Shown here in pieces: positions 3,482 through 56,201 of a DNA stretch of 64,000 nt; positions within the stretch are counted from its first letter, which is position 1, and each line of letters begins with the position of its first letter. Source of the stretch: Pomacea canaliculata (taxonomy: Eukaryota > Mollusca > Gastropoda > Architaenioglossa > Ampullariidae). The translations under genes were made by a program, and so were the position numbers. The notes beneath the pieces were generated by a model. It was given only the letters and a program-made list of their open reading frames with translations. It made no database searches and had not been told where the DNA came from. Where the stretch lies: the NCBI RefSeq assembly GCF_003073045.1, contig NC_037590.1, forward strand, positions 31,125,327 to 31,189,326, given 5' to 3'.

Positions 3482-4587
3482 ATGACAACAACACATCAGT
3501 TAATGGCCGCCGCCTTCTACCTGTGCAATCTTTTGTTTCTCTACCACGTCGACCCCGGTAGGTTTACTTCACCTGACTTTTTCTTTTTGTTTTTACTCAT
3601 CTATTATTTTCTGTTTGTAAAACATTGTTGTGCTTTGTGACATTACAGCGTTAAGTAATCTTAGTTGATCGGTAACAATTATGCAGTCAATAAGAGTTAA
3701 ACAACTCTAAAGCTAAACTTAATTTGTCTTTAAGAAAGTAGACCTCTACTGACACTATTGATTGTTATCTGGGGCACTTTCTTTAAAAACCATTTAATGT
3801 ATCATTGCCCGTCGTCCGATGTTATGTTACTCAGGGAATGTGAAGATCCAGTATTAACACATTTCCGGAGAATAGAAAAGATTTGATCACAGAAGCAAGA
3901 CTGAAGTGCTTTATGTTGCAGTCAACAGCTTAATATGCAAGAATTGTGAACAAACTGATCCCAACTGCAACTCCGGAGAAGTGGCAGATGCCGAGTGTGA
4001 GCCCTCGATGCCTTACTGCATAACTATTAAAGGTACTTTTTCAGATGGTAAGCAAACATTTGTTTTTTCCTTTTGTCTGTGCGTCCATGAGCCTCTCTAG
4101 TGCACTACTACACTGTTGTATTATTGTCATTGTGTTCTGTTTGCATTCCTTACCTCTCTGTAGTCATGGGCGCAAGCCTTCACTACATTCCATTGTTCTC
4201 TCTCTCTCTCGTTCTGTTATGTACAGGTGATAAGAGGATTTTCGATATAAATATGTGGGGAGTCGTTTATTGCATCAAATTTAATACAGATGTTAGCATA
4301 TTCTAAAATAAAGACACATTTATAGGTGAGGGTTGATATATTAACAAGCAGATGAAGATGTATGGGTAGATATGTAGATGGATGAGTGGAAGGATAGATA
4401 ACATTACTCTATTTATTCCTTACCTCTGCTAAAGCATGGCCATTTTTGCTCAGGACGTATCATAGTCCATCGTTCCTGCAGCAACGAGTCATTTCGTACG
4501 TGTAAAACAATGTTGTTCTCAGTACTGACGTTGTGCCCTATGACCTGCCAAACGGACCGCTGTAACAACAAAGAAAACGATCCATGA
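3482..4587 (+). CDS. TFP1: secreted three-finger (Ly6/uPAR-like) protein, subfamily A
   Basis: Three exons are read at 3482-3557, 3922-4047 and 4454-4587, all joined in phase 1 by GT-AG introns of 364 and 406 bases. They encode 111 residues. Exon 1 is a hydrophobic signal peptide beginning MTTTHQLMAAAF. The mature part has ten cysteines. Their spacing is CxxC, x6, C, x9, C, x6, C, x17, C, x7, C, x10, C, x3, C, x4, CN. This is the LU-domain pattern, ending in TDRCNN; the family usually has the eighth and ninth cysteines adjacent, whereas here three residues separate them. The protein ends eight residues after the last cysteine with no hydrophobic GPI-anchor tail, so it is predicted to be secreted. 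The start is fixed by the leader shared with its paralogues. Its ligand and biological role are unknown. Confidence 0.85.
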
Positions 4588-5640
4588 GAAAATGAGTTAA
4601 GCTGACATTCCTGCCATTGAAGGCTTTAGAAAAGTTTTTGTCGGTTTCTCTTAAATACATGGCGACATCTGACATGAAACTGTGTAAATTTTGTCCAGAA
4701 AACTGAAGAAAAACAGTTGTAAATCTCAGTTGTTTCACTGTTGTTTCTTTGTTGTGCGAACAAATGTAGAAATTGATGTGATTGTGTGATAATTCTACAT
4801 CTTATTTAGAAACAGTTAAAGGGTAACCCTTAGTGCAACATTATCTTTCTCCTTCTCTTTAACATAAGAAAGATTTGATCTTAAGGTCTGTCCAAAGTTG
4901 AAAGCCTCGTTGTGTGCAGATGATTTCGCTCTCTTCATCCGAAGCATCTTCCTACCTTGTATCGAATGTCATTTTCAGAAGTGCATTAACGGTGTGCAAA
5001 AGGGGACCAGACGGCTTCAGCTTTTCTTTTTTTCCCTCTCTCTAAACAATTTGGGACGCAACACGCGGGTGCAGACACCTACCCGTTATATCATGTTTAC
5101 ACCTTTTAGCCTCTCGTGGCAGTCTGATAATCTTCCTCACAAATATAATTTTAAAAAGAAAGGTTGTGGTCGCGGACTCAAGGGGTTTAGAAATCACGCT
5201 GGTATAGATGAAAGCAATGCACACTTGTAGTAAAAATAACATTGAGAGGGTGGCAATACCACCTGCAGGTTATTTTAACAAAGTTGGGGTAGACCAGGGT
5301 TGGGAAACGTGTGGCCCTTGGTCAGTCGCAGATCTAAGTACATCTATATGTTTTTATGACAACACAAATTGATAAAAATTTGTATTTTTTACTATTAAGT
5401 AAGTAAAAATACTAATGTAATTTTTGTTTGACATTCGGAAAGTTCGTATCGTAATAGACAGGACAGGCACAGAGTATATGTCTGAGCACACTCGTATTCT
5501 TCTCGTCGCTGCCCGCGGCCTCTATGGGCGATTTTGGAGAATTAAACATGCATGTGACCTGCTGACCCCGCCAAGAGTAGACCACTTGATAATACACATT
5601 GATATTGTTGTCAGAATGTAACTAGATATACTGAATTTCA
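4588..5640. repeat. 3' flank of unit A1
   Basis: This is the downstream region of TFP1. It is shared with 13980-14990 (after TFP2) and partly with 20810-21165 (after TFP3). The piece at about 4860-5090 also resembles sequence upstream of TFP3, TFP9 and TFP10 (for example 53880-54090). A hAT-like motif (CCAGGGTTGGGAAACG) occurs near 5294, but a matching second end was not found. I see no gene. Confidence 0.65.
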
Positions 5641-12389: not shown

Positions 12390-12459
12390 AGTGAAAGCAC
12401 ACTTCTATTGCAAATACAAGACAATCAGCCTGTTCCATAATATCTCCCTCTTCACACTG

Positions 12460-12653: not shown

Positions 12654-13791
12654 ATGACAACAACACATCAGTTAATGGCCGCCGCCTTCTGCCTGTGCGG
12701 GCTTTGGTTTCTTTTCCACTTCGACCCCGGTAGGTTTACTTCACCTGACTTTTTCTTTTTGTTTTTACTCATCTATTATTTTCTGTTTGTAAAACATTGT
12801 TGTGCTTTGTGACATGTCAGCGTTAAGTAATCTTAGTTGATCGGTAACAATTATGCAGTCAATAAGAGTTAAACAACTCTAAAGCTAAACTTAATTTATC
12901 TTTAAGAAAGTAGACCTCTACCGACACTATTTATTGTTATCTGGGGCACTTTCTTTAAAAACCATTTAATGTATCATTGCCAGTCGTCCGATGTTATGTT
13001 ACTCAGGGAATGTGAAGATCCAGTATTAACACATTTCCGGAGAATAGAAAAGATTTGATCACAGAAGCAAAACTGAAGTGCTTTATGTTGCAGTCAACAG
13101 CATAATATGCAAGAAGTGTAATAACACTGATGCCAACTGCAACTCCGGAGAAGTGGCAGATGCCGAGTGTGAGCCCTCGATGCCTTACTGCATAACTAGT
13201 AAAATTTTTCGTTCAGACGGTAAGCAAACATTTGTTTTTCCTTTTGTCTGTGCGTCTGTAAACCTCTCTAGTGCACTACTACACTGTTGTATTACTGTCA
13301 TTGTGTTCTGTCTGCATTTCTTACCTCTCTGTAGTCATGGGCGGAAGCCTTCGCTACATTCCATTGTTCTCTCATTCCCTTTAATTATCAGCTTTCTCTC
13401 TCTCTCTCTCTCGCTCTATTATGTACAGGTGATAAGAGGAGTTTCGATATGAATATGTGGGGAGTCGTTTATTGCATCAAATTTAATATAGATGTTAGCA
13501 TATTCTAAAATAAAGACAAATTTATAGGTGAGGGTTGATATATTAACAAGCAGTTGAAGAGATGCATGGGTAGATATGTAGATGGATGAGAGGAAGGATA
13601 GATAACAATACTTTATGTATCCCTTACCTCTGCTAAAGCATGGCCATTTTTGCTCAGGACGCATCACAGCCACTCGTTCCTGCAGCAAGGCGTCATTTGT
13701 TACCTGTATAAAAGCGTCCCAACTAGCGCAGGTGTGCGCTTGGACCTGCAAAACGGACCGCTGTAACAACAAAGACAACGACCTAGCATAA
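12654..13791 (+). CDS. TFP2: secreted three-finger protein, subfamily A
   Basis: Exons lie at 12654-12729, 13094-13219 and 13658-13791, with phase-1 introns of 364 and 438 bases. The product is 111 residues, the same exon sizes as TFP1. It has the shared leader (MTTTHQLMAAAF) and ten mature cysteines, ending TDRCNN plus a short tail, with no GPI signal. Relative to TFP1, exon 2 has 15 base changes that alter nine codons and leave one silent, while intron 1 of the same length has only seven changes. Exon 3 diverges even more between its cysteines. This pattern suggests diversifying selection on the mature protein. Its biological role is unknown. Confidence 0.85.
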
Positions 13792-14990
13792 AAGGACTGC
13801 ATTTGCCGACGACACTTTGTCAGAAACTGCCAGTGACACCAAAAGTATTATATTTACTTTACACGTATTATAAAAGAAGCTATTCAACAAATTCTACTAC
13901 TTTTAAATCAAATTTTATCCAAATTACACAAACGATAAATCGTTTATTCCACTTGAAAGTCGTCTTCTCTTTCTATTGTTTCCTGCTAACCTCCCCGAAT
14001 GCAAGTTAAGCAGACATTCCTGCCATTGAAGGCTTTAAAAATGTTTTTGTCGGTTTCTCTTAAATACATGGCGACATCTGACATGAAACTGTGCAAATTT
14101 TGTTCAGAAAACTGAAGAAAAACAGTTGTAAATCTCAGTTGTTTCACTGTTGTTTATTTGTTGTGCGAACAAATGTAGAAATGGATGTGATTGTGTGATA
14201 ATTGTACATCTTATTTAGAAACAGTTAAAGGGTAACCCTTAGTGCAACATTATCTTTCTCCTTCTCTATTAACATAAGAAAGATTCGATCTTAAAGTCTG
14301 TCCAAAGTCGAAAGCCCCGTTGTGTGCAGATGATTTCGCTCTCTTCATCCGAAGCATCTTCCTACCTTGTATCGAATGTCATTTTCAGATGTGCATTAAC
14401 GGTGTGCAAAAGGAGACCAGACGGCTTCAGCTTTTCTTTTCTTCCCTCTCTCTAAACAATTTGGGACGCAACACGCGGGTGCAGACACCTACCCGTTATA
14501 TCATGTTTACACCTTTTAGCCTCTCGTGGCAGTCTGATAATCTTCCTCACAAATATCATTTTAAAAAGAAAGGTTGTGGTCGCTGACTCAAGGGGATTAG
14601 AAATCACGCTGGTATAGATGAAAACAATGCACACTTGTAGTAAAAATAACATTAAGAGGGTGGCAATACCACCTGCAGGTTATTTTAACAAAGTTGGGGT
14701 AGACCAGGGTTGGGAAACATCTGGCCCTTGGTCAATCGCAGATCTAAGTACATCTATATGTTTTTATGACAGCACAAATTGATAACAATTTCTATTTTTT
14801 ACTATTAAGTAAGTAAAAATACTAACGTAATTTTTTTTTGACATGTCGGAACGTTCGTATCGTAATAGTACGCTGGACAGAGTATATGTCTGAGCATACT
14901 CGTATGCTTCTCGTCGCTGCCCGCGGCCTCTATGGACATTTTGGAGAAGTAAACATGCATGTGACCTGCTGACCCCGCCAAGAGTAGACC
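13792..14990. repeat. 3' flank of unit A2
   Basis: The stretch matches the 3' flank of TFP1 from about 13980 onward. The segment at 13792-13980 is shared with TFP3 (20606-20810) but absent after TFP1, where the two parts are joined directly near 4590. There are no genes. Confidence 0.65.
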
Positions 14991-19505: not shown

Positions 19506-20594
19506 ATGACAACAACACATCAGTTAATGGCCGCCGCCTTCTGCCTGTGCGGGCTTATGTTTCTCTTCCACGTCGACCCCGGTAGGTTTACTTCACCTGA
19601 CTTTTTCTTTTTGTTTTTACTCATCTATTATTTTCTGTTTGTAAAACATTGTTGTGATTTGTGACATGTCAGCGTTAAGTAATCTTAGTTGATCGGTAAC
19701 AATTATGCAGTCAATAAGAGTTAAACAACTCTAAAGCTAAACCTACTTTGTCTGTAAGAAAGTAGACCTCTACCGACACTATTCATTGTTATCTGGGGCA
19801 CTATATTTAAAAACCATTTAATGTATCATTGTCAGTCGTCCAATGTTATGTTACTCAGGGAATGTGAAGATCCAGTATTAACACATTTCCGGAGAATAGC
19901 AAAGATTCGATCACAGAAGCAAGACTGAAGTTCTTTATGTTGCAGTCAACAGCTTAATCTGCAAGAATTGTGAACAAACTGATCCCAACTGCTACTCCGG
20001 AGAAGTGGCAGATGTCCAGTGTGAGCCCTCCTTCATTTACTGCATGACTCTTAAAGCTACTTATTCAGACGGTAAGCAAACATTTGTTTTTCGTTTCGTC
20101 TGTTCGTCCGTGCACTACTACACTGTTGTATTACTGTCATTGTGTTCTGTTTGCATTCCTTACCTCTCTGTAGTCATGGGCGCAAGCCTTCGCTACATTC
20201 CATTGTTCTCTCTCTCTCGTTCTGTTATATACAGGTGATAAGGGGAATTTCGATATAAATATTTGTGGAGACGTTTATTTCATCAAATTTAATGTAGATG
20301 TTAGCATATTCTAAAATAAAAACAAATTTATAGGTGACGGCTGATATATTAACAAGCAAGTGAAGAGATGGATGGGTAGATATGTAGATGGATGAGTGGA
20401 AGGATAGATAACATTACTTTATGTATCCCTTACCTCTGCTATAGCATGGCCAATTTTGCTCAGGACATATCTCAGCCCATCGTTCCTGCAACAATGAGTC
20501 ACTAAGTGGGTGTAAACAAGTGTCCTCAATACTAACGGTGTGCGCTAGGAGCTGCCAAACGGACCGCTGTAACAACAAAGCCAACGACCCATGA
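19506..20594 (+). CDS. TFP3: secreted three-finger protein, subfamily A
   Basis: Exons lie at 19506-19581, 19946-20071 and 20464-20594, joined by phase-1 introns of 364 and 392 bases; the product is 110 residues. The leader matches TFP2 apart from a few residues near its end. The mature chain has ten cysteines and ends TDRCNNKANDP without an anchor signal. One codon is missing between the seventh and eighth cysteines compared with TFP1 and TFP2, so finger III is a residue shorter. Intron 1 has exactly the length seen in TFP1 and TFP2. A possible polyadenylation signal lies at 20916. Secretion is inferred; the function is unknown. Confidence 0.85.
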
Positions 20595-22827: not shown

Positions 22828-24261
22828 TTAGCCAATGACAGATGTGCCGTTAACGTCAACGTTACAGTTGTTAGAGGTGCAGGTTTGCACGCAATGTGTA
22901 TAACGGTAACCGGAGATAACCACTTCCTGGCACTGCGTACCGATGTATAGCTTGGTGCCACAACCACGTCTCCTACCTTCGCCTGCCAGCAAAAAAAAAA
23001 ACATACAACCAAGATTTAGGTGCGGAAAACGGGATACATAAAAGCAATCTTAACTATCACCCACTACTTTACCTACCTATTCATTCGTTCGTACGTTTAC
23101 CTATTTGTCAATCTCTCGTGTATTCACCTAAACAATTGACTCAATATATCTGTTCACAGATCTGTATTTTAAGTTAAAACAATTAAATGCAATAAACTCA
23201 TGTTTAAATGTACAGAAACTCATTTCATATCATATATACGGTTTATATATTTTCGTGTGTATATATATATTTGATGTAAAGAAACTCGTCATTTAGGTAA
23301 AGAAGGGACGTGTTTACTCGGTGTAGGCTTCACGCAGCATACAACAGCAGAAATATAACAATGTAAGAAAGTGAATAAAAGTCTCACAGGCGGACGCACA
23401 ATCAACCCTCCACCCCTAAAAAAAAACAAGTTTACTTACCCGGTAAGTCAAGAGCGGATAATGTGATAGTCGTGCAGTAGCCATAACCTTCAGGACAAAC
23501 AATAGATGGCGCGCTTCGTCCGTTGTCGCAAACTGGTTGGCTGAAGGTACAATTCACGCATGATAAGCTGTTCACTGCAACACAAAACACGGAGTGTGTC
23601 AGACTTGCTTCTGTGATCGAGTCTCTCCTATTCACCTGGAAAATTGTTACCTGTTGACAAACACCTTCCCTGAGTAACACAACATCGGACGATGGTACAT
23701 TATGTGGTTTTAAAATATCCGTGTCTTCTTGACTAAAACAAACAGCAATGTATAATATTGGCACATGGCTGCTTTCTTAATAACAAACATGTGGACAATC
23801 AAGTACAATGTAAAGCATTAATAATGAACTTTGTTTTCACGTTCTTAGACTGACGGTGTCTCGCCAGGAATTAACCCTCTACCGTTGGTTGAGGTGTTAG
23901 TCGGTGATGATGAAACTCCTTGTAACGAGTTGTGAGTGTCATCGGTATTTGTCAATTAAGTAGCAACCATCATCAAGTCAGATTCCTAGTGCATTGTCAC
24001 TTGACTAATAAACCAGTTCTTATATTATTCTAGTTCATTAAGCCATGCTAAATGCTAAGTGTCTTGAGCTTTTTACTGGACGAACAAACTAAACATATCC
24101 AAAAGAAGAAAACATCCATTCACAAAACTTTTAATAGAAACAAAATAAGATGAGTACAAGAAAGAGTCAGGTGAAGTAAACCTACCACAGTCGACGTGGA
24201 GAAGAAAGAAAAGCCCGCACAGACAGAAGGCGGCGGCCATTAACTGATGTGTTGTTGTCAT
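22828..24261 (-). CDS. TFP4: secreted three-finger protein, subfamily B
   Basis: On the minus strand, exon 1 is 24261-24186, exon 2 is 23574-23440 and exon 3 is 22982-22828. Introns of 611 and 457 bases are in phase 1, and the product is 121 residues. The leader is the shared one. The mature chain has ten cysteines with CxxC-x6-C at the start and C-x3-C-x4-CN (TSNNCN) at the end, then a 13-residue tail with an NGTS glycosylation sequon and no hydrophobic anchor. Exon 2 is 135 nt, nine longer than in subfamily A. The frame of exon 2 continues open upstream into intron 1 as far as 23764. TFP4 stands head to head with TFP5 in an inverted duplication. Confidence 0.85.
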
Positions 24262-24660: not shown

Positions 24661-24692
24661 TTATTGTTATTAATATTATTATTAATATTATA

Positions 24693-24735: not shown

Positions 24736-24737
<2 letters not shown>

Positions 24738-28682: not shown

Positions 28683-30192
28683 ATGACAACAACACATCAG
28701 TTAATGGCCGCCGCCTTCTGTCTGTGCGGGCTTTTGTTTCTTCTCCACGTCGACTCTGGTAGGTTTACTTCATCTGACTTTTTCTTGTACTCATCTTTTT
28801 TGTTTCTATAAAACGTTTTGTGTATGGATGTTTTCTTCTTTTGGATATGTTTAGTTTGTTCGTCCAGTAAAAAGCTCAAGACACTTAGCATTTAGCATGG
28901 CTTAATGAACTAAAATAATATAAGAACTGGTGTATTAGTCAAGTGACATTGCAGTAGGAATCTGAATTGTTGATAGTGGCTACTTCATTGACAAATACCG
29001 ATGACACTCACAATTTGCTACAAGGAGTTTAATCAGCAGATCACTGACTAACACCTCAACCAACGGTAGAGGGTTAATTCCTGGCGAGACACCGTCAGTC
29101 TAAGAACGTGTAAGTCTGCGCGTGAAAACAAAGTTCATTATTAATGCTTTACATTGCACTTGATTGTCCACCTGTTTGTTATTAAGAAAGCAGCCATGTG
29201 CCAATATTATACATTGCTGTTTGTTTTAGTCAAGAAGACACGGATATTTTAAAACCACATAATGTACCATCGTCCGATGTTGTGTTACTCAGGGAAGGTG
29301 TTTGTCAACAGGTAACAATTTTCCAGGTGAATAGGAGAGACTCGATCACAGAAGCAAGTCTGACACACTCCGTGTTTTGTGTTGCAGTGAACAGCATAGA
29401 ATGTAAGAATTGTACCTTCAGCCAACCAGTTTGCGACAACGGAGGAAGTGCGCTATCTATTTCGTGTTCTGGTGGCTACTGCTTGACTACCAGATTAGTC
29501 AGTGTAACCCCCGGCGTCGACAGTAAATAAACCGTTTTTGTTTTTTTGTTGTTGTTGTGTTTTTGTTTTGTTTTTGTTTTTTTGGGGGGGGGGGGGGGGT
29601 GTTGAGTGTTCATCCGCCTATAAGACTTTAATTCACTTTCTTACATTGTTCTATTTCTCCTGTTGTATGCTGTGTGCATTGTTTACTTTCCTTTAGTGTC
29701 AGGACCAAGCCTACAATGAGTAAACAAGTGTTTTCTTCACCTAAATGACGAGTTTATTTCCCTGTAATATGTATACACCAAAATATATAAACCATGAATA
29801 TGATATGAAATGAGTTTCTGTACATTTCAACATGAGTTTTTTGCATTTAATTGGTTTAACTTGAAAGAAAGCTCGATGATATTGAGAGTCAATTGTATAT
29901 GTGAATACACGAGAGATTTACAAATAGGTAAACGTACGCACGAATGAACAGATAGGTAAAGTAGTGGGTGATAGTTAAGATTGCTTTTATGTATCCCGTT
30001 TTCCTCACCTAAATCTTGGTTGTATGTTTGTTGCTGGCAGCTCAAGGTAAGAGACGTGAGTGTGGTGGCAACTCGATCATCAATTTTTGCGATTATATTA
30101 CCATAAGCGGAATACGATATTACCGATGCGTAAAAACCTGCCCCACTGACAACTGTAACTCTGACGTTAACGGCACATCTGTCATTGGCTAA
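28683..30192 (+). CDS. TFP5: secreted three-finger protein, subfamily B
   Basis: Exons lie at 28683-28758, 29388-29522 and 30041-30192, with phase-1 introns of 629 and 518 bases; the product is 120 residues. It has the shared leader and ten mature cysteines, ending PTDNCN followed by a tail with the NGTS sequon that is also in TFP4. The gap between the fourth and fifth cysteines is four residues, against six in most copies. Exon 2 keeps the TFP4 start (CTFSQPVCDNG) but its second half differs, although flanking intron sequence is nearly unchanged. Exon 2's frame extends open upstream to an ATG at 29198. There is no anchor signal; the function is unknown. Confidence 0.85.
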
Positions 30193-31922: not shown

Positions 31923-33383
31923 CTATAGATGAATCCAAATCACACTTGTGGTAAAAATAAAAATGAAAATAAAAATAAAAACATTGGAAAGTTGACAATA
32001 CCACATGCAGGTTTTTTGTTGTTTTTTTTTTTTTTTTAACAAAGCTGGGGTAGACGAGGAAAGGGAGTCTGAAATTATCAAAAAGTTGTGCTCTGACGAA
32101 CGGTGAGCATGCTGCAAGGCAAGCAAGATGGCATGGAGTTCTGCTGTGAAACTAGAACATTCGTCTGCCAGTCGGACTGAAACAGCCCGTTGTGGTTGGC
32201 AGGATGGAACTGCTGCCGCAGCGACTGGGCCTCCACTTGGGATTTTGGAGCCATCTGTAAAAACTGAGAAGAATTTAGGATAGTCAGAAATGAGTTCATG
32301 AACGTGTTGGAGGTAGATGGGGTCACTAGTGTCCCCTTTTTTTGAAAGCTGTTAGATCAAAACGGATCTCTGGAACAGGAAGGGTCCTAGGAGGAGTTGT
32401 TGCAGAGATAAAGGTTCTACCTGATTAATATCTACTCCGGCAGCTTGTAGGTGAGGTGCTACTCGGAGTGATAGAGGTTTTTGCTCCTTGGTACGAATGG
32501 CATACAAGGCAGCATGCTGAGGTCTGAAGACAGCACGGTACGCAGGGTTTCCAGGATGAAATTTTAAACAACAGACATAGGATAGCATGAGTTTCAAACG
32601 ACGTGTTGCAGGAGATGAGACATTCAGAAAAACTTGCAGCATTACAACTGAGTGACACTTTCATCCCACCTACCCAAAACTCATTCCCACTCAACAAACG
32701 TCACAAGCAACCCAAGACAAGCATATAAATGTATAAAATAAAAAGGACAAGCTGTCTCTTCCCCTCATCTCTCTAACATTCGAATTAGATTTTTTCTTTA
32801 GAAAAATTGCGTTTCTCTTTTAAACAAATCGACAAACTATACACCTTTAGAACCGTGCCGGTCATACATTGTGTAGAGGCTGAAAGTGACAAAAACATTT
32901 TCAGTAGCCAATAAAGGGTTGAAATGCTGTAGATGCAAGTGTTATGTTGCATAGGAAGCAACTACGGTATTTACATAAAAGCAAACATTTTGGATATCGT
33001 CCCTTGAGTACAGTTCTATCCATATTCAGTTTTAGCAGCAATTAGTATTTTGAACGATTCTTGAAACTGTCTCTACTACTACCCTCTTTTTTTCTAGAAA
33101 AGCAACACAAACTCTCCTCACACTTCCCTCCCCAGTATAACAGCATCCTCTCTTCATGCTAGAGTGAATACTGGTGTGGGGGATATGGAAGGACATTGAC
33201 GAAATCCAGCAAAGAAATTGCAGATCATCTTTAGGTGAAAGCACGCTCCCTCCAAATCGTCCAGCAAGGACATTGGAGATCACTGACTGGCTGCCTGCCA
33301 CTCGCCCCCCGACTGACTTGACCATTGGCAGTGACCACTTCCACCCGAGAGAAGGACAAGAGTGTTTGCTAGACAAGACAGAC
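31923..33383. other. Flank between the TFP5 unit and psiD1
   Basis: It begins with sequence shared with 38165-38280, is interrupted by a LINE fragment (32056-32600), and then continues with sequence shared with 39000-39600. The last 300 bases are the decayed promoter and 5' region of psiD1. There is no intact gene. Confidence 0.6.
32056..32600 (-). mobile_element. LINE (non-LTR retrotransposon) fragment with partial RNase H domain
   Basis: Read on the minus strand, this encodes a linker region containing SLRVAPHLQAAGVDIN and, after one frameshift at an A run near 32340, an RNase H domain. The domain shows FTDGSK, then SSFTAELHAILLALQHA, then HNFLIISDSLSS, which match the conserved Asp, Glu and Asp regions of LINE-encoded RNase H. 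The domain is cut off just after the third motif. Neither an intact reverse transcriptase nor a 3' tail is present. This is a dead fragment lying in the flank of the duplicated unit. Confidence 0.75.
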
Positions 33384-34003
33384 ATGACACCTGCACAACA
33401 ACTGATCGACTCCCCCTGTCTGTGAGTTGGATATTTCTCTTCCCATCAACTCCGGTCGATTGACTTCTCCGGAATCTTCGTTTAACTCCTAGTTTAATCT
33501 TTTTATTCATGTCTTTTTTATAAACATGTCGTGGCTCTGTCGATTGTCATCTTGTAGTCTTGTTTTCTTTACTCTCCCCGTTACCACGCTAGACACTGAA
33601 AGTTAAATAATTAGAGCTATATTTACAAATAATCCAATTCACATATGACACAGACATGAGGGGATGAGACAAGTAGGCTTCTCTTGGGTTGTCTGCGACG
33701 AATGCCCTGATGACTTGTACGGATTGACGACATGCCAATAAACACAAAGGTAATTATCGCTATGCATCTCATCTGCACAACGAAAAAACTGTAGACAATG
33801 CATTTTCATATGGCGATAGGTTTCCAATACAGTAAAAAGAATGGACAAGACTGATGTAATCGGTGTTTTGTGTTGCAGTGAGAACTATAAGATGCTTGCA
33901 ATGTTCGTCGTTCAACGACTTCACTCGACCAGGAACTCTGTGTGACCACCCCCCCCCCCCCGTAAATTTCTGCACCATTTTCAGATTCATCGTCTATACT
34001 AGA
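33384..34003 (+). pseudogene. psiD1: decayed three-finger gene, exons 1 and 2 only
   Basis: A diverged leader exon starts at 33384 (MTPAQQL) but meets a stop after 13 codons, at 33423. A second exon follows the usual TTGCAG acceptor at 33879. It reads [14 protein letters not shown] and then further cysteines in LU-like spacing, with a poly-C expansion in the middle. The GTAAGC donor seen in other copies is replaced by AGAAAAGC. No third exon is found before the (GGTT)n tract. Upstream, the decayed promoter and untranslated region can still be aligned with active copies. This is a fourth subfamily, known here only from relics. Confidence 0.7.
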
Positions 34004-34993: not shown

Positions 34994-36456
34994 ATGACAA
35001 CAACACATCAGTTAATGGCCGCCTTCTACCTGTGCGGGCTTTTGTTTCTTCTCCACGTCGACCCCGGTAGGTTTATTTCATCTGACTCTTTCTTGTACTC
35101 ATCTTATTTTGTTTCTATTAAAAGTTTTGTGAATGGATGTTTTCTTCTTTTGGATATGTTTAGTTTGTTCGTCCAGTAAAAAGCTCAAGACACTTAGCAT
35201 TTAGCGTTGCTTAATGAACTAGAATAATATAAGAACTGGTGTATTAGTCAAGTGACAATGCACTAGGAATTTGACTTGATGATGGTGGCTACTTAATTGA
35301 CAAATACCGATGACACTCACAACTCGCTACAAGGAGTTTCATCATCAGCGACTAACACCTCAACCAACGGTAGAGGGTTTATTCCTGGCGAGACACCGTC
35401 AGTCTAAGAACATGTAAGTCTGCGCGTGAAAAGAAAGCTCATTATTAATGCTTTACATTGCACTTGATTGTCCACCTGTTTGTTATTAAGAAAGCAGCCA
35501 TGTGCCAATATTATACATTGCTGTTTGTTCTAGTCAAGAAGACACGGATATTTTAAAACCACATAATGTACCATCGTCCAATGTTTGTTACTCAGGGAAG
35601 GTGTTTGTCAAGAGTTAACAATTTTCCAGGTGAATAGGAGAGACTCGATCACAGAAGTAAGTCTGACACACTCCGTGTTTTGTGTTGCAGTGAACAGCTT
35701 AAGATGCAAGAGTTGTGAGAACACGACACAGTGCATTACCGGAGAACGCGCGGATTCTATTTATTGTTCTGACGATCAAAAATACTGCTTGTCGACCAGA
35801 GTATACAGATTGGCCGACGAGGCCGGTAAATAAACATTTGGGACGAGGAGGGTTTGAGTGTGCGTCCGCGTGTGAGACTTTTATTCACTTTCTTACATTG
35901 TTATATTTCTGCTGTTGTATGCTGTTTGCATTGTGTACTTCCCTTTAGTGTCATGAGGAAGCCTACACCGAGTAAACAAGTGTTTTCCTTCACCTAAATG
36001 ACGAGTTTCTGTCCATAAACTATATAAGCAAACGCAAAAATATATAAACCCTTAAAATGATATAAAATGAGTTTCTATACATTTAAACATGAGTTTTATG
36101 CATTTAATTGTTTTAACTTGAAAGATAGATCTGTGAACAGATATATTGAGAGTCAATTGTATAGGTGAATACACGAGAGATTGACAAATAGGTAAACGTA
36201 CGCACGAATGAATAGGTAGGTGAAGTAGTGGGGGATAGTTAAGATTGATTTTATGTATCCTGTTTTCCGCACCTAAATCTTGGTTGTATGTTTATGGCTG
36301 GCAGGCGAAGGTATTAAACGTGAGTGTACCAACGAGACCACCGTGCCAACCAACGGGTATTTGTGCCGGTTACTGTCTATCGGAGGTGAACTACATACAC
36401 GATGCATGAAATCCTGCTCCTATGACAACTGTAACGTTGACCTCCCAGTTGGTTAA
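34994..36456 (+). CDS. TFP6: secreted three-finger protein, subfamily B
   Basis: Exons lie at 34994-35066, 35691-35825 and 36305-36456, with phase-1 introns of 624 and 479 bases; the product is 119 residues. The leader is one alanine shorter (73 nt exon) because one of three GCC codons is missing. The mature chain has ten cysteines and ends SYDNCNVDLPVG; the NGTS sequon of TFP4 and TFP5 is absent. Only five residues separate the second and third cysteines. Between the conserved cysteines exon 2 has little in common with TFP5, although the flanking introns match closely. A possible polyadenylation signal is at 37080. The product is predicted to be secreted; its role is unknown. Confidence 0.85.
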
Positions 36457-39400: not shown

Positions 39401-39600
39401 AATACATTGACGGAAAAAAGCAAAGAAATTGCAGATCATCTTTAGGTGAAAGCACGCTCCTTCCAAATCATCCAGCAAGGACATTGGAGATCACCGTCTG
39501 GCTGCCTGCCACTCGCCCCCCCCCCCCGACTGACTTGACCATTGGCAGTGACCACTTCCACCCGAGAGAAGGACAAGAGTGTTTGCTGGACAAGACAGAC
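36457..39600. repeat. 3' flank of TFP6 and upstream flank of psiD2
   Basis: 36457-38160 repeats the region after TFP5 (30193-31920) and, in mirror image, the region after TFP4. 38165-38560 matches the subfamily-A 3' flank in the forward direction. 39000-39600 matches 32770-33383. An AT-rich segment at 38560-38990 shows open frames on both strands without motifs. The target site of the 7016 hAT element is seen uninterrupted near 39121. I see no gene. Confidence 0.65.
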
Positions 39601-40213
39601 ATGACACCAGCACAACAACTGATCGCCTCCCCCTGTCTGTGAGTTGGATATTTCTCTTCCCATCAACTCCGGTCGATTGACTTCTCCCAAATCTTCCTTT
39701 AACTCCTAGTTTAATCTTTTTATTCATGTCTTTTTTATAAACATGTCGTGGCTCCGTCAATTGTCATCTTGTAGCCTTGTTTTGTTTACTCTCCATATTA
39801 CCACGCTAGACACTTAAGCTTAAATAATTAGAGCTATATTTACAAATAATCCAATTCACATATGACACAGACATGATGGGATGAGACACGTACGCTACTC
39901 TTGGGTTGTCTGCGACGAATGCCCTGATGACTTGTACGGATTGACCACATGCCAAATAAACACAAAGGTAATTATCGCTATGCATCTGCACAACGAAAAA
40001 ACTGTAGACAATGCATTTTCATATGGCGATAGGTTTCGAATACAGTAAAAAGAATGGACAAGATTGATGTAATCGGTGTTTTGTGTTGCAGTGAGAACCT
40101 TAAGATGCTTGCAATGTTCGTCGTTCAACGACTTCACTCGACCAGGAACTCTGTGTGACGACCCCTTGAATTTCTGCATCAGTTTTAGATTAATGGGCTA
40201 TAATAGAAAATGA
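39601..40213 (+). pseudogene. psiD2: decayed three-finger gene, exons 1 and 2 only
   Basis: This is the sister copy of psiD1. The leader starts at 39601 and stops at the same codon as psiD1 (39640), so that defect predates the duplication. Exon 2 starts at 40092 ([14 protein letters not shown]) and lacks the poly-C expansion. It ends in a stop at 40211 where a splice donor would be expected. No third exon follows before the join with the next B unit at about 40303. Confidence 0.7.
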
Positions 40214-41139: not shown

Positions 41140-43477
41140 ATGACAACAACACATCAGTTAATGGCCGCCGCCTTCTACCTGTGCGGGCTTTTGTTTCTTA
41201 TCCACGTCGACTGTGGTACGTTTACTTCATCTGAGTTTTTCTTTTACTCATCTTATTGTGTTTCTATCAAAAGATTTGTGCATGGATGTTTTCTTCTTTT
41301 GGATATGTTTAGTTTTTTCGTCCCGTAAAAAGCTCAAGACACTTAGAATTTAGCATGGCTTAATGAAATATAATAATATAAGAACTGTTTTTTATTAGTT
41401 AAGCTACATTGAAAAAGGAATTAGACTTGATGATGGTGGCTACTTAATTGACAAATACCGATGACACTCACAACTCGCTACAAGGAGTTTCATCATCACC
41501 GACTAACACCTCAACCAACGGTAGAGGGTTAATTCCTGGCGAGACTCCGTCAGTCTACAGAGTAGAGTGTCAAAAAGTAGGAACATTTTAACTTTTAGTG
41601 GTCAGATAGATGGAGGGAAACGACCTCCCCACCCACTGAATGTCCTGTTTAGGATAAGGGATAAAACCTTGCAATGAGAGGAAGATACCTAGACCAGTGG
41701 TCGTGATTATCATTGTTTTGTTTTAAGGAATAATGTAGACATTGGAAGTAAGTATTGAGAACTGTTGACTGCGTGTGGACTAATGGTTAAAGATATTTAG
41801 TTATTTAGGTGTAAGGCCTGGTGCATGCAAACATATCTCAAGTGGATCTGAGTACAGGCGCATTATTTCCACGATGAAACGTGAATGTTAGAACTATACT
41901 AGATATACATCAAGTAAAAGATCACAAGATTTCTTTTGCTACAAATATGCGACTAGGCGGGAAAGCCTTCACAAAAATATGTTCTCTTTTTGTGCATTTG
42001 AAAACAAATGTTTTGCGTGGTGTCACATATGGTACACGCAAAACCGTTAATAAAGAGACACACATGACACATACGTGGACATAAACACACAGACACATAA
42101 TACACACAGACACATAATACACACACATACTACACACAGACACATTAATACACACAGACACATCATACACACAGACACAGCATACACACAGACACATAAT
42201 AAAAACAGATACATAATACACACAGACACAGCATACACACAGACACATAATACACACAGACACATCATACACACAGACACATAATACACACAGACACAGC
42301 ATACACACAGACACATAATACACACACATACTACACACAGACACAGCATACACACAGACACACATCAGCTTCTAGTCAGATGTCTGTGTCGCGTGTATCA
42401 ATCTCTCTAACGGAAAGAACATGTAAGTATGCGCGTGAAAACAAAGTTCATTATTAATGCTTTACATTGCACTTGATTATCCACCTGTTTGTTATTAAGA
42501 AAGCAGCCATGTGCCAATATTATACATTGCTGTTTGTTTTAGTCAAGAACACGGATATTTTAAAACCACATAATGTACCATCGTCCGATTTGTTACTCAG
42601 GGAAGGTGTTTGTCAACAGTACAATTTTCTAGGTAAATAGGAGAGACTCGATCACAGAAGTAAGTCTGACACACTCCGTGTTTGTGTTGCAGGTAACAGC
42701 TTATCATGCGTGAATTGTACCAACAGCGAGTCAAGTTGCTTCAAACGGACGAGAAGCGCCGCCCATCTATTGTTGTCCTGAGGTGTATGGCTACTGCAGG
42801 ATTGTCAGATTAAACGATGTTGACGTCTGGGGTAAGCAAACTTGTATTTTTAGTTTTAGGGTGGAGAAGGGCACGTTGTGCTGCTTCCGCCTTGAGACTT
42901 TTATCACTTTCTACATTGTTCTATATCGCTGTTTTTATGCTGTTTGCATTGTTTACTTTCCTTTAGTGTCAGGAGCAAGCCTACAACGAGTAAACAAGTG
43001 TTTTCCTTCACCTAAATGACGAATTTCTTTCCATCATATATATCTATATACACGAAAATATATAAACCTTTATAATGATATGAGATAAGTTTCTATACAT
43101 ATAAACATGAGTTTATTGCATTTAATTGCTTTAACTTGAAAGAAAGCTCGATGAACGGTTATATTGAGAGTCAATTGTATAGGTGAATACACCAGAGATT
43201 GACAAATAGGTAAACGTACGCACGAATGAATAGGTAGGTGAAGTAGTGGGGGATAGTTAAGATTGCTTTTATGTATCCCGTTTTCCGCACCTAAATCTTG
43301 GTTGTATGTTTCTGGCTGGCAGTCGAAGATATTACACGAGAGTGTACCAACGAGACCACCGTGTCAAAATACAGGTATGTGTGCGATGAGGTGACTATCG
43401 ACGGTAGACTTTATTTACGATGCATATATACCTGCTCCTATGACAACTGTAACGCTGACCCCATAATTGTTGGCTAA
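41140..43477 (+). pseudogene. TFP7: three-finger gene, subfamily B, with a frameshift in exon 2
   Basis: Exon 1 (41140-41215) encodes the usual leader, and exon 3 (43323-43477) is intact with five cysteines and ends SYDNCNADPIIVG. Exon 2 (42693-42831) is 139 nt, not a multiple of three. It begins NSLSCVNCTNS, but compared with TFP4 it has extra bases near 42760 and one missing T near 42776, which bring a stop at about 42780. Splice sites are in place. Intron 1 carries an 858-base insertion (41558-42415) with a minisatellite. The break may be genuine or an assembly error, since indels increase from here to about 47 kb. If the frame were sound, the product would be a normal ten-cysteine secreted protein. 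Confidence 0.7.
42075..42362. repeat. Minisatellite of about 17-bp units in TFP7 intron 1
   Basis: Repeats of ACACACAGACACATAAT with small variations run for nearly 290 bases. Long open frames across it on both strands are by-products of the repeat. Confidence 0.9.
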
Positions 43478-46400: not shown

Positions 46401-46910
46401 ACAAACATCTTTCATGCGTTCACACAACAGGCCTGCACCACCATCGTGGTAAAAAGACCCGAAAATGATGACGAGGGTTGCTGATGCACGTCTGGCCACA
46501 TCAAGAAAAAAGTTCACAACAGCCAACCACAGTGCTGAACTGCTGAAGGAGGTGAGACCATTAAGACAAACTTGCCAGCATGACAACTGAGTGCACTTTC
46601 CTCCACCTACACAACACTCCTTCGCATCCACGCCCACACAACATCTTTCCTCGCCCATTTTCTCATTACTCTCGCGTAGAACGCCTCTCCTCTCGACACC
46701 GGCGTACCACAGTGTGTTTGAGAATAAAAGCTTACATGCAACACAGCAAGGACAATTACGAATTCACTTTAAGTGGATCATCGACTCTACATCAAACTCT
46801 ACAAATCAGAAAACTAGAGATCACCCGAACTTACTGCGACCATTGCAGTCACCACTTCACCTGAGAAAAGATAGAGCGCCGCCGAGTTCTCATAACTCAC
46901 ATAGACCAAA
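43478..46910. other. Indel-rich 3' flank of TFP7 and upstream region of TFP8
   Basis: From 43478 to about 45500 the sequence follows the 3' flank of TFP6 (36457-38440) but with frequent single-base insertions and deletions. 45500-46400 roughly follows 38400-39000. 46540-46910 is a degraded version of the A/B upstream region, with only AGAATAAAAG near 46721 where the TATA box should be. Open frames here lack motifs and are not called as genes. Confidence 0.55.
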
Positions 46911-48471
46911 ATGGACAGACACCACATCAGTTAATGGCGCGCCGCCTTCAACCTGTGCGGGCTTTTCCTTTCATCTCCACGTCGACTTCTGGGGAATAGG
47001 TTACTTCCATTGGATCGTTCTTCGTTTTACTCATTTTATTTTACTCCTTCTTTTTAAAAAGTTTGTGTTTTTGATCATTCAGCCTTTAAAAATCACTTAG
47101 TACATACGAACTAACATGCGTAGGATCCAACAACATTGGGTAGACCGATTACATGTTTGTAGTTCAGGTGTCAGGTAAGAACTATGCAGTTCAATAATAA
47201 CTGAACAAATCAAAGAATATTGCTAAGTTCAATAATGTAGTTGTAAATGTATATGTCCTTCTACTTCGAAATTTCTGTAGCAAGTAGACACATATTTGAA
47301 ATACTGGCTATAGTGTCATAGATTACTCCTTTGTTTCTAAAAGCCACTTATATAAGTACAGCTCTCTCAGTGTTACACCTTTTCCGACATCTAGGCCCGT
47401 GCAAGGAAGTATTTATCTATATAAAAAATCATTGGAACAAATCTGAAATTCCTTGATAAACAGTTTTAAAATGACTGTTTTGTCTGTAACACAAATTTTA
47501 ATTAGAGGTTATTTTCACTTTTTATTGAGAAGTTACAATTAAAAAGCACAAAATAAAATTCATTAACACTGACTCCAACATCGAACTTTTGAAATTAAGA
47601 AAGCGGCCGTGTATGGACATCATGCATTGTTATCAATTCGGGTTAAGGGGTACGTGTAGTTTAAAACCACCAGGCTGTGTTAGTCAGGGAAGATGTAGTG
47701 TAGATGCAATAGCACTCCATTTCCCGGTGACTAGTAAAGACTTGATCACTAGTGCAGGACTGACACACTCTGTTCTTTGTGTTGCAGTGAACAGCATCAG
47801 ATGCAAGACTTGTCATTACACTAACCCCAACTGCAATTCTGGAAATGTGCCAGATACAGATTGTTGTTTCGAAAACGATCATTGCATGATTATGATATTT
47901 AACTCCAGCACATGTAATTAAACATTTATTTTGCATTTTGTGTATGCGTCCGTCTGTGGGTCTCTGTTGTGCACTCCCACATTGTTGTTTTACTGCCGTT
48001 GTATTCTGTTTGCTTTGTTTACCTCCCTTTAGACATGGAAGGGAGCCTGCATTAAATTCATAAATTTTTTTCTTCCTTTGTCTCAATTTAGAGTTTCTGT
48101 CCTTTATATATTAAGATATATAACACAATTTGTGTGTAAGAAAATTCTCGTTTATTGGATCTAATTATTTTGATTGGACAGACAGATAGAAAGAAATGTT
48201 GAGAACAAGAATAATGTTCAGGTAAAAGTTTGATAGATTGCCAAATAGACAATAGATGCATGGTTAAATAAGTAGATGGATAAGGGGAAAGATGGATAAC
48301 ATTACTTTTATGTATCCCATTACATGCCTTTGCTAAATCATTGCCCTTTGCTTGGCAGCATCACAAGTGACAACCTTTCGAGGATGCACAACAGGAGGAC
48401 GTACCAAGTGTATGTCTATCGGCCCTAATATGTACTGTGCAATCTACTGCTGCACGGACAACTGTAACTAG
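46911..48471 (+). pseudogene. TFP8: three-finger gene, subfamily C, with a broken leader exon
   Basis: Exon 2 (47788-47913) and exon 3 (48359-48471) are intact, in phase and have good splice sites. They end in the classic YCCTDNCN. The mature chain has twelve cysteines: the ten of the LU pattern plus one right after the fourth (DCC) and one right after the ninth (YCC). The protein ends at the asparagine after the last cysteine, with no tail. The leader-like exon at about 46911-46995 can be aligned with other leaders but has several single-base indels and no clear GT donor. Exon 2's frame stays open upstream to an ATG at 47589. Either the leader is truly lost or the sequence here is faulty. 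A polyadenylation signal lies at 48780. Confidence 0.65.
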
Positions 48472-48845: not shown

Positions 48846-48876
48846 CAGTGATACCTCGGTTCTCGAACATAATTCG

Positions 48877-49241
48877 CAGGGTTGTCCATGGGACATATTT
48901 TTCTATCCCGTCCCATCCCGTCCCATGGCAATTTATGCCTGTCCCATCCCGTCCCATCCCACGGATGTTTCCCATGGATTCCCATGGTATTAACAATCCT
49001 ATGGACAACACTGAAAACCACTTTCGGCTTTTGTTCTATAATTCCTGCTACTTCACATACAATAGATGATTCAGAGGAAAGATTTAAATCCTTGATGAAT
49101 GAAATAACAGTAAATTTATTTTACAATATCAAGTATCGACTACCATGGGAAATACAAATGTGTGCTGTCCCATCCCATCCCGTCCCATGGGACGTTTCCC
49201 ATGGGCTTCCCATGGGATTCCCATTCCTATGGACAACACTG
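48877..49241. mobile_element. hAT-type element nested in the Tigger element, 365 bp
   Basis: The terminal repeats CAGGGTTGTCCATGGGA and (read inward) CAGTGTTGTCCATAGGA are flanked by the 8-bp duplication ATAATTCG at 48869-48876 and 49242-49249. The interior has many CCCATCCCGTCCCATGG motifs in two blocks. An extra copy of the right end lies near 48998-49013, suggesting two joined elements or an internal duplication. Confidence 0.85.
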
Positions 49242-49475
49242 ATAATTCGTTCCGGGAGGACGGTCGAGAACCAAATTGTTCGAGAACCGAAGCAATGAAA
49301 CCCATAGGAAATAATGGAAACTGGATTAATTCGTTCCAAGCCCCAGAAAATGCCTATTTACTGGCCTAATTTGTATATAATATGTAGAAAAACATGAGTC
49401 TTAACAAGAAATAAGAAATAAAAGTGTATTTATTAAAACAAAAACAAAAACAAAACAAAAATGTACTGTACAGTA

Positions 49476-49969: not shown

Positions 49970-50253
49970 TACAGTAAATTGTGTTTCATTTACTGTACCT
50001 GTACCAAACTTTATGGCAGGAGGGAATGAATGTGGAGGGAGGAGGGAAGGGGATGGTTATTGTCACTGATGACGCAAGCAAGGCGCGCTGGGCAGAATGA
50101 ACGCCATTCGGCTCAACTCGGCTCATCTCAGACGTTCGGATGTTCGAGTTCCAAATATTTGTTCGAATTCCAAGACAAAATTTTCTCGAATTTCCTGGTC
50201 GAATACCGATTTGGTCGAAAGTCAAGGCGTTCGAGAACCGAGGTATCACTGTA

Positions 50254-53200: not shown

Positions 53201-53502
53201 TTTCGAGAAAAATGGCTGGAAAGGTCTGGTCTGGCTTTGCCAAGGCAACCACAGGTGGAACGCAACATTCATAAAATTTAGCATTTATTTCTCGGTTTGT
53301 CTATAATGTGAAGAAGCCCGTAGTCTAGGATGCAGTACCTTTTCGGTATAGTCTGAAATGTGCAGACATCAATGTTCATGATCGTGCTGTAAGCCACCTG
53401 CACAATAAAACTGCTATTCCTGGCAAATAGTCATCGCAATGCGCAAGTGAATTGTCGTCCACCGCAGACTGTTTTACTGTGCAGATGGTATAAAGAGCGG
53501 TC
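50254..53502. other. Distal 3' flank of TFP8, duplicated after TFP9
   Basis: 50254-50880 matches 56570-57190, and 50940-53030 matches 58050-60540. It holds the minisatellite at 51170-51800 and simple AG/GT tracts near 51910-51975. At 53040-53500 it resembles the flank at 2240-2740. Near 52509 it shows the uninterrupted target of the hAT element found at 59565. I see no gene. Confidence 0.6.
51170..51800. repeat. Degenerate minisatellite (locus 2)
   Basis: About eight imperfect units of 60-90 bases share a core of the form GTTCCCATCT-x-AATGGTACCAGCTGAC, then a TATAGCAGAT element and AAAATGAGAG. An isolated further unit lies near 52086. Confidence 0.65.
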
Positions 53503-54567
53503 ATGAACTTTGTTTTATTGTTCACGTGCACACCATCTACAGACGGCGCCACCATCGGGCACGTGACAGCTGCGGTGACTCAGGGTTCGTCAGTGCCAGG
53601 CACACTGGGAGTGTACACGTGGCAGCTAGAGGAGAACACTTTGACCCACCTCACCTGGAAGCACGACTTTCTGTTTGATCTCGCAGTGTAGTTTCAGAAA
53701 AGGTCTTACCTCCATCAGCTCACTTAAACACTTTGAAGTTCTCATACGGGCTGCATGTATTGTGCCTCCCTTTATCGAAAACTTTCTCTCCCGTCACTTT
53801 TTTTCAAGTTTGTATTTTATCTTTACTCTCCTGTTTTTAGAAACAGGAAAAGGGTAAACCTAAGTGACACTATCTTTCGCCTTCTCTCTTCAACATTAAA
53901 TAGTTTCGATCTCAAAGTCTGTCCAAATTTAGAAGCCTCGTGGTGTGTCAACATATTACTACTATGTCTCGAATGCCGTTTTCAGATGTACATTAAAGGT
54001 GTGCAAAAGTAGGAGACAAAACTGATTTTTATCGCTTTTTCTTGTCTCTGAAGATTTGGGACGCAGTATGCTCGTTCAGACACCTACCCGTTTAACACAC
54101 TGAAACCTCGATTTTGGTCGATAATCCGTCCAAAAACTATCGGTGAAATCCCAAACCAACGAAAACTGAGGAAATGTTTTCTAAATTAACTAATAGAAAT
54201 CGAATCAATTTTGTTTTCTACAGCCCAGAAGTCGACTGTTCTCTTCAAAAATAAAGAACATAGTATACTACTAGAGTGATACACAGTTTAAAAAACCGAA
54301 AACATGTTAGGCAATAAAATTGTCTAGACGCGGGAGGTGATGCTCACAACACACCGTCAAATTATGCTGTTATGAAAGGATAGTCACTTGCGAAATATTC
54401 TAGAGTGAGATTTGAATCCATAACCCACGATCTTTGTGGTCTTGTTACTTAGTTAATAATGTTACTTATTCGAACACACAGTTCGAGATCGCCAGTTAAG
54501 TGAAAGCAAACTTCCATCGCAAATACAAGACAATCACCCCCCTTCCATAATATCTCCCTCTTCACAG
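53503..54567. repeat. Upstream flank of TFP9 (A-type)
   Basis: 53503-53860 matches 2744-3100. 53870-54090 matches the segment upstream of TFP3 (18750-18960). The 62-codon frame recurs at 53503-53691. A Tigger-like element fragment lies at 54098-54345. No gene is called. Confidence 0.65.
54098..54345. mobile_element. Tigger-like element fragment
   Basis: It begins CACTGAAACCTCGATTTTGG and follows the element at 15529-16092 through its middle part. The far terminal repeat is missing. Confidence 0.5.
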
Positions 54568-54596
54568 TCTTGTGACATGGTGTGTGAGGTATAAAG
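54568..54596 (+). promoter_or_regulatory. Core promoter of TFP9 (altered)
   Basis: TATAAAG (54590-54596) replaces TATAAAA, and the upstream box reads TCTTGTGA (54568-54575) instead of TCATGTGA, so the palindromic centre is lost. The spacing stays at 14 bases. Confidence 0.6.
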
Positions 54597-54785
54597 GCCA
54601 TTGCAGGCGACCAGCAATGCTATTGCGAATTAACTTTTAGGTGGAGTCACCTGATCACCCAACAAGGACATAGGAGATCACCGACTGGCTGCCTGCTACA
54701 CACCCCGAGTAGTCTCACCATTGCAGTCACCACTTTCACCTGAGGAAAGACAAGAGGCCGCGAGCTCTCAGTCCACAAGACCAAC

Positions 54786-56201
54786 ATGACAACAACACAT
54801 CAGTTAATGGCCGCCGCCTTCTACCTGTGCCGGCTTTTGTTTCTTCTCCACGTCGATCCCGGTAGGTTTACTTCACCGGACGTTTTCTTTTTGCTTTTAC
54901 TCATCTATTATTGTCTGTCTCTAAAACAATGTTATGTTTTGTGACATGTCAGCGTTAAGTGATCTTAGGTGATGGGTAACAATTATGTAGTCAATAAGAG
55001 TTAAACATCTCTAAAGATAAACCTAATTTGTCATTCAGAAAGTAGACCTCTACAAACACTAAGCATTGTTATCAGAGAAACAAAAATATAAAAACTACAG
55101 AATGTATCATTGCCAGCCGTTTGATGTTATGTTACTCAGGGAATGTGAAGTACCAGTAGTAACACATTTCCGGAGAATAGCAAAGACAGAAGCAAGACTG
55201 GAGTGCTTTATGTTGCCTGTACAGCTTAATGTGCAAGACTTGTGATTAAAATGTACAGTTAGTGCAAAATAAAATAAAATTCATTAACACTGACTTCAAC
55301 ATCGATCAATTCGTGATAAAGAAAGCAACTTGTGTCAAAAAATTGCATTGTTATCAATTGGGGGTAAAGGGTAGGTGTAGTTTAAAACCACCAGGCTAAG
55401 TTAGTCAGGGAAGGTGTAGTGTAGATGCAATAGCACTCCATTTCCCGGCGACTAGTAAAGACTTGATCACTGGAGCAGGACTGACACACTCTGTTCTTTG
55501 TGTTGCAGTGAACAGCGGCGTTTGCAAGCCTTGTAGTTACACTGACCCCAACTGCAATGATGGAAATGTGCAAGATACAGATTGTTGTCTCGAAAACGAG
55601 AGTTGCATCAGATTGATATTGAACTCCAGCACATGTAATTAAAATTTTATTTTGCATTTTGTGTATGCGTCCGTCTGTGGGTCTCTGTTGTGCACTCACA
55701 CATTGTTGTTTTACTGCCGTTGTATTCTGTTTGCTTTGTTTACCTCCCTTTAGACATGGGAGGGAGCCTTCATTAAATTCATAAATTTTTTTCTTCCTTT
55801 GTCTCAATTTAGAGTTTCTGTCCCTTATATATTAAGATATATAACACAATTTGTGTGTAAGAAAATTCTTGTTTATTGGATATAATTATTTTGATTGGAC
55901 CGACAGATAGAAAGAAATGTTGAGAAAAAGAATAATGTTCAGGTAAAAGTTTGATAGATTGCCAAATAGGCAATAGATGCATGGTTAAATAAGTAGATGG
56001 ATAAGGGGAAAGATGGATAACATTACTTTTATGTATTCCATTACTTTTATGTATCCCATTACATGTCTTTGCTAAATCATTTCCCTTTGCTTGGCAGCAT
56101 CACAAGTGACAATTACTCGAGGATGCACAGGACTAACCCAATATACGTATATGGGTCCTAATATTGTCTGTGGGATCTTCTGCACGGACAACTGTAACTA
56201 G
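54786..56201 (+). CDS. TFP9: secreted three-finger protein, subfamily C (chimeric gene)
   Basis: Exons lie at 54786-54861, 55509-55634 and 56098-56201, with phase-1 introns of 647 and 463 bases; the product is 101 residues. The leader and the first part of intron 1 are of subfamily A type, whereas exons 2 and 3 are of subfamily C type. A dead subfamily-A exon 2 remains in intron 1 (55197-55262). The mature chain has ten cysteines. Compared with TFP8 it has lost the seventh (KC changed to a non-cysteine stretch) and one of the YCC pair by a three-base deletion, but it keeps the extra DCC. It ends in TDNCN with no tail. It is open and well spliced on paper; folding with this cysteine set is unusual. 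Confidence 0.8.
55197..55262 (+). pseudogene. Relic subfamily-A exon 2 inside TFP9 intron 1
   Basis: The sequence follows the A-type acceptor context (GTGCTTTATGTTGC) but the CAG acceptor is changed. It reads on as CAGCTTAATGTGCAAG and a TGT, then stops matching at about 55262. There the C-type intron sequence (AAAATAAAATTCATTAACAC) begins, which marks the recombination point. Confidence 0.7.

Follow-up and report, generated by a model that had tools for sequence, protein, structure and literature searches.

A tandem array of probable three-finger protein genes in Pomacea canaliculata with conserved introns and diverging mature exons

We analysed a 64,000-nucleotide stretch of DNA (the window), assigned to Pomacea canaliculata, the golden apple snail, by its matches to RefSeq proteins. 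It holds ten copies (T1 to T10) of a gene that probably encodes a small secreted protein of the Ly6/uPAR (three-finger) type; nine copies lie on the plus strand and T4, within an inverted duplicate, on the minus strand. Between copies, the exons encoding the mature protein have diverged further than the introns that separate them. We consider it likely that the window carries a young tandem array of secreted, non-anchored three-finger genes, shaped by duplication, strong diversifying selection and the exchange of short segments.

Divergence of the exons and codon models

The contrast had been noticed from the letters alone, and the counts given in that sequence-only reading were exact; our gene models also agree with its stated span, T1 starting at 3482 and T9 ending at 56201. 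Between T1 and T2, 7 of 364 bases are changed in intron 1 and 15 of 126 in exon 2, where nine of the ten altered codons change the amino acid; exon 3, said to be more divergent still, differs at 33 of 131 bases and intron 2 at 22 of 405. T5 and T6, for which the same contrast had been claimed, differ at 29 of 623 bases in intron 1, 46 of 129 in exon 2 and 55 of 140 in exon 3. Eleven pairs of copies were compared, and ten were left once T1-T10, which has no comparable intron, was set aside. In all ten, exons 2 and 3 were both more diverged than intron 2 (exon 2, 11-46%; exon 3, 18-39%; intron 2, 2.9-17.5%). For intron 1, seven pairs gave usable values, of 1.9-6.3%; T8-T9 gave none, and T5-T7 and T6-T7 were dropped as misaligned because of an insertion in T7. 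The change is abrupt at the exon-2 acceptor of T4-T6, where the last 62 bases of intron 1 hold 1 difference and the first 42 aligned bases of exon 2 hold 16. The far edge of this exon is less sharp, with 20 differences among the 55 aligned bases that open intron 2.

Site models were run with our own code, exons 2 and 3 each on its own tree and T7 left out as out of frame. This site-wise analysis of omega (the ratio of nonsynonymous to synonymous rates, dN/dS) on codon alignments, proposed as a check in the sequence-only reading, gave a class of sites with omega above 1 in both exons. Its omega was 3.0 for 49% of sites in exon 2 (nine copies; M8 versus M8a, twice the log-likelihood difference (2dl)=20.1, p=7e-6) and 2.2 for 69% of sites in exon 3 (eight copies; 2dl=12.3, p=4.5e-4). 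Gap-free columns gave p=1.3e-5 (exon 2) and 7e-5 (exon 3), and the T1-T6 subset alone gave p=7e-4 and 2e-4; the largest 2dl among 24 data sets simulated under the null was 3.3. Nei-Gojobori estimates of omega exceeded 1 in eight of ten exon-2 pairs and five of seven exon-3 pairs.

The worry that gene conversion might distort these estimates was addressed by letting intron 2 set the neutral rate. With the neutral rate so fixed, models lacking omega above 1 lost by 2dl=92 to 228 in three groups of copies, and 40-48% of the mature codons needed an omega of 10-34. When the synonymous rate was left free, the selected class had an omega of 6 to 18 and was needed at p=8e-5 in T1-T3, 5e-6 in T4-T6 and 0.003 in T8-T9. 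The site-model classes and the intron-2-calibrated omega thus support diversifying selection on the mature part of the protein, as had been claimed for the array.

The copies follow a common plan of three exons and two phase-1 introns, found in all seven full models (T1-T6 and T9), which is also the plan of Ly6/uPAR superfamily genes. In intact copies the leader exon measures 73-76 bases, exon 2 126 or 135 and exon 3 104-155. The predicted structure matches the three-finger (LU) fold, and uPAR was matched in a profile comparison (E=5e-6). Pfam matches stayed below the curated cut-offs in a set of four proteins, QVR reaching 21.7 bits (cut-off 27.3) in one and UPAR_LY6_2 24.1 bits (31.5) in another, the other two having no match; among ten proteins DUF753 was matched by four (best E 2.4e-4) and QVR by one. 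No Rfam match was found at gathering scores. The claim that all ten cysteines stay holds for T1-T6 (T1 and T2 each have ten after residue 28) but not for T8, with 12, or for T9, whose ten are placed in part elsewhere. Counted over 22 proteins, leaving out the truncated or fused models P0004, P0012 and P0018 and the later-found P0022, there were ten cysteines in 19 and 12 in three (P0011, P0015 and P0016), in which they probably form one extra disulfide; the final CN was present in all 22.

The conserved 5' block and rival explanations

The leader had been called constant, and its first 12 codons are, with no substitution in eight of eight clean copies (T6 carries a 3-base deletion). A 24-base leader pattern occurs eight times, always exactly, and 0 times in shuffles. 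The second half varies (18% between groups, with a weak selection signal of p=0.011 over 24 codons), and exon 1 differs between T1 and T2 at 8 of 76 bases, against 1.9% in intron 1. The invariant codons lie within a conserved 5' block. Between groups, divergence is 6.7% at -230..-170, 11.3% at -170..-90, 3.6% at -90..0, 0% over the first 36 coding bases and 9.2% over the first 30 intron bases; upstream of -230 the conservation of the 5' flank stops (40% different). A perfect TATAAAA stands 144-188 bases before the ATG in seven of the ten copies, T9 and T10 have TATAAAG, and T8 has neither. In the centres of intron 1 the alignment between T1-T3 and T4-T7 is lost (55-62% different), and the end of this intron is still alignable between groups (about 75%). 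The abrupt end of the block some 30 bases into intron 1 leans towards conversion, rather than purifying selection, as its keeper.

T9 is a chimeric copy. A T1-like 5' part (54502-55253) is joined to a T8-like body (55271-56566), and at the recombination junction, 55221-55271, the beginning of an exon 2 of T1 type lies stranded in intron 1 beside T8-like sequence. Segment exchange between paralogues is likely.

Such exchange could carry more of the explanation than selection does. Conversion would then have homogenised promoter, leader and introns, the exons would be older or received in blocks, and selection on point mutations would be minor; block exchange of this kind is described for snake toxins, as accelerated segment switch in exons (ASSET), in PMC2711939. 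The T9 recombinant fits such an account of old exons in young introns, as do the 5' block kept between groups with unalignable intron centres, the 3.1-4.7% divergence of intron 1 in T4-T6 against 11.4-12.4% for intron 2, and the runs shared between paralogues, which reached an uncorrected P<=0.001 in 4 of 27 pair tests, each time in an exon. Uneven constraint can mimic the shared-run signal of exchange, however, and purifying pressure on the cysteines may contribute to it as well. Exons that were merely older than the introns would moreover have old synonymous sites. With variable omega, equality of the synonymous and intron-2 rates was not rejected in any of the three groups (p=0.25 in T1-T3, 0.09 in T4-T6, 0.16 in T8-T9), and among codons for the same residue synonymous change was mostly rare and near the intron level (1 of 15 in T4-T6 exon 2, an exon 41% different). 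Conversion by itself also gives nonsynonymous change no advantage, and we regard this account as rather unlikely. Several results nevertheless weigh against the diversifying selection that we prefer, the shared runs among them. When a single omega was fitted to all sites, synonymous rates came out higher than the rate of intron 2 in T4-T6 (p=1e-5) and in T8-T9 (p=0.015), and higher than the intron rate in several pairwise fits, again as expected of old exons; in T1-T3 equality was not rejected (p=0.15). When T4-T6 exon 2 was calibrated on intron 1, letting omega vary did not prevent rejection (p=0.006), and on this ground intron 1 may be partly homogenised. Differences at four-fold codons for the same residue were highest in exon 3, at 4 of 13 for T4-T5 and 2 of 5 for T5-T6. 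Site-averaged omega was not significantly above 1 (exon 2, 1.42, p=0.12; exon 3, 0.98, p=0.9), pairwise maximum-likelihood omega over exons 2 and 3 exceeded 1 at p<0.05 in just three of seven pairs, and the site-model code was checked only by the 24 null simulations. The 5' flank is also unevenly conserved, the -170..-90 stretch differing by 15% even within T1-T3.

A mutator aimed at exons 2 and 3 and raising all change there would account for the sharp climb in divergence at the acceptor and for the position-specific cysteine codons of exon 2 (44 of 45 cells), but it would raise synonymous change equally, with which the variable-omega fits and most same-residue counts disagree, and the cysteine codons of exon 3 change between groups; such hypermutation is very unlikely. 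The same change in exon 3 makes a special protection of cysteine codons unneeded. That the copies are decaying pseudogenes whose exons drift is suggested by the out-of-frame exon 2 of T7, the unreadable leaders of T8 and T10 and two old relics (Table 1). Neutral exons cannot exceed introns, however, seven of the ten copies keep a full open frame and splice sites, and the loss of every model without omega above 1 refutes relaxed constraint array-wide, leaving it improbable in the extreme. Unlikely in our judgement, though less so than these two, is a modular generator of repertoire, in which a cassette of promoter and leader, about 330 bp long, would be kept similar and moved between bodies, perhaps with long-range splicing, and exons 2 and 3 would diversify independently. 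T9 could represent one captured junction of such a process, and LOC112572665 isoform X2 and the LOC112568304 isoforms, described below, possible cases of leader sharing.

In an array diversified chiefly by selection, duplication would generate copies of the three-finger gene, and the conserved promoter region and leader start would keep them expressed and secreted alike. Diversifying selection, aided by short-segment exchange among paralogues, would rewrite the fingers and keep the cysteine core. The fingers may bind a changing partner, such as a receptor of the mate, a microbe or parasite, or a target in prey or predator, and the array may be a recognition or effector repertoire. Tentatively, we place reproductive or other exocrine signalling ahead of defence or immunity as its role.

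Family members, gene models and assembly

The family extends beyond the window. Protein searches returned 22 distinct P. canaliculata proteins, 19 assigned to a 45.4 Mb contig and three to another contig of 34.5 Mb; exons in the window underlie five of the 19 (P0001-P0004 and P0011, P0004 being judged by eye). T2, T4 and T5 match their RefSeq proteins letter for letter, and T1 agrees by eye with LOC112577361 isoform X2, in which exon 3 is shorter. RefSeq annotates the family members as uncharacterized. Three protein searches, by a method requiring shared exact words, found no relatives outside P. canaliculata, and the open-licence literature yielded no publication title naming this protein family and no paper for six LOC identifiers. 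LOC112568274 isoform X1 (P0012) apparently has two exon-2-like units ahead of one exon 3. P0019, from a related second set of proteins on the 34.5 Mb contig, is named omega-scoloptoxin-Ssm1a-like, and its leader and cysteines resemble those of the array family. NCBI gene models lean on RNA-seq, and transcription of the copies is only suggested by the existence of RefSeq isoforms.

Two of these gene models combine parts in unusual ways. LOC112572665 isoform X2 (P0011) consists of T6 exon 1 and T8 exons 2 and 3, skips T7 and spans 12.7 kb; for LOC112568304, isoforms X1, X4 and X5 are listed with one leader and three bodies. The leader regions of T8 and T10 (46839-47042 and 63302-63761) show 0.59-1.33 short indels per substitution in five comparisons, against 0.08-0.16 in five between-copy comparisons elsewhere, 0.20 for the relics versus T1 and 0.00 for relic versus relic. 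They are probably unpolished long-read sequence in the reference assembly. Insertions predominate among the T8 indels (9 of 12 versus T9), which fits uncorrected long-read error; the balanced T10 indels (11 insertions and 13 deletions versus T1) and the middling 0.37 indels per substitution of the T10 intron-1 end and exon 2 fit it less. If the T8 leader is uncorrected, RNA reads that came from its intact form could have been placed on T6. The T6-T8 model, which at first sight looks like cross-copy splicing, is in view of the indel pattern more probably an artefact of assembly and annotation. The start of P0022 resembles, by eye, the antisense of the intron 2/exon 3 edge of another copy (compare the minus-strand frame at 13419-13847), which may be another sign that gene models in the array can be chimeric.

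For the published P. canaliculata assembly, from which we assume the window to derive, PMC6129957 reports PacBio reads with Pilon base correction and a heterozygosity of 1-2%. T1-T2, with 1.9% difference in intron 1, may be a false tandem duplication made from two haplotypes, in which case their diversification would be allelic and not paralogous; for the whole array, at 3-12% divergence, this is less likely.

Both relics of the 5' flank and leader show about 76% identity to T1, and the two are 97% identical; a leader-bearing copy lies some 1.4-1.8 kb downstream of each. An open frame on the minus strand at 31926-32351 resembles RNase H (Pfam RNase_H, E=1.4e-6) and is probably a retrotransposon tail. 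Downstream of T8, a repetitive open frame at 48873-49298 includes the short tandem repeat unit TCCCATGGGACT at 49183-49224.

Table 1. Gene copies and associated elements in the window (window positions; aa, amino acids).
Feature	Positions	Strand	Exons or parts	Remarks
T1	3482..4587	+	3482-3557, 3922-4047, 4454-4587	111 aa
T2	12654..13791	+	12654-12729, 13094-13219, 13658-13791	identical to RefSeq LOC112568265
T3	19506..20594	+	19506-19581, 19946-20071, 20464-20594	110 aa
T4	22828..24261	-	24261-24186, 23574-23440, 22982-22828	inverted duplicate; identical to RefSeq LOC112576072
T5	28683..30192	+	28683-28758, 29388-29522, 30041-30192	identical to RefSeq LOC112572663
T6	34994..36456	+	34994-35066, 35691-35825, 36305-36456	leader joined by RefSeq to T8 body
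T7	41140..43477	+	leader 41140-41215, exon 2 42693-42831, exon 3 43323-43477	leader intact; exon 2 out of frame; exon 3 open
T7 intron-1 tandem repeat	42079-42362
T8	46839..48471	+	leader region 46839-47042, exon 2 47788-47913, exon 3 48359-48471	leader region unreadable, many small indels; exons 2 and 3 open
T9	54786..56201	+	54786-54861, 55509-55634, 56098-56201	chimeric copy
T10	63302..63981	+	exon 2 63856-63981	leader region unreadable, many small indels; exon 2 open; exon 3 outside the window, the copy extending past its end
Conserved 5' block (T1 shown)	3252..3587	+	TATA box (some 188 bases upstream of the ATG), 5' flank, codons 1-12, first 30 intron-1 bases
Decayed relic of 5' flank and leader	33206..33473	+
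Second decayed relic	39467-39700			within a stretch 97% identical to the first relic

Comparison with known systems

The best-known hypervariable three-finger arrays are those of snake venoms and salamander pheromones. The present one would be a clean case in a snail not known as venomous, in which the introns provide an internal neutral ruler within one window. Such a case would let new mutation, segment exchange and conversion of the flanks be measured apart, in a fast-evolving protein family of an important invasive pest.

The snail proteins share the fold and the final CN motif with LU proteins such as Lynx1, SLURP, uPAR, C4.4A, Lypd6 and Quiver, but they fall below the curated cut-offs of QVR and UPAR_LY6_2 and have one hypervariable domain. 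An adjacent CC pair is found in CD59-type domains and, towards the C-terminus, in snake three-finger toxins (3FTx); in its place the snail proteins have CxxxC.

Conotoxin genes, also from gastropods, combine a constant leader with a hypervariable cysteine-rich mature part, and have position-specific cysteine codons. The array resembles them in the first two respects. For conotoxins, PMC12236594 describes a two-finger fold and counts a P. canaliculata protein, not further specified, among the structural relatives of its toxins, whereas the model of the array protein matches three-finger LU domains.

In snake 3FTx, according to PMC2711939, intron segments remain more than 85% similar while exon segments are swapped. 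The array shares with these toxins the fold, the lack of a membrane anchor signal, the conserved signal peptide and cysteines, and conserved introns with change confined to exons and blocks of segments replaced. It differs in its snail host, in the absence of a venom gland context and in a leader whose first half is base-for-base invariant within the window. No snake protein was among the 22 matches of the protein search, which requires shared 5-residue words; all were from P. canaliculata.

In the Plethodontid modulating factor (PMF), a courtship pheromone of salamanders, isoforms are about 30% identical, selection is positive and the untranslated regions are conserved at about 98% (PMC6487043). 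Like PMF as described there, the array encodes three-finger proteins in many paralogues (36% amino-acid identity in the snail) with positive selection on the coding part; unlike PMF, it belongs to a snail, and the conservation seen so far lies in parts of the 5' flank. The snail array may work like snake 3FTx and PMF, and we claim descent from neither.

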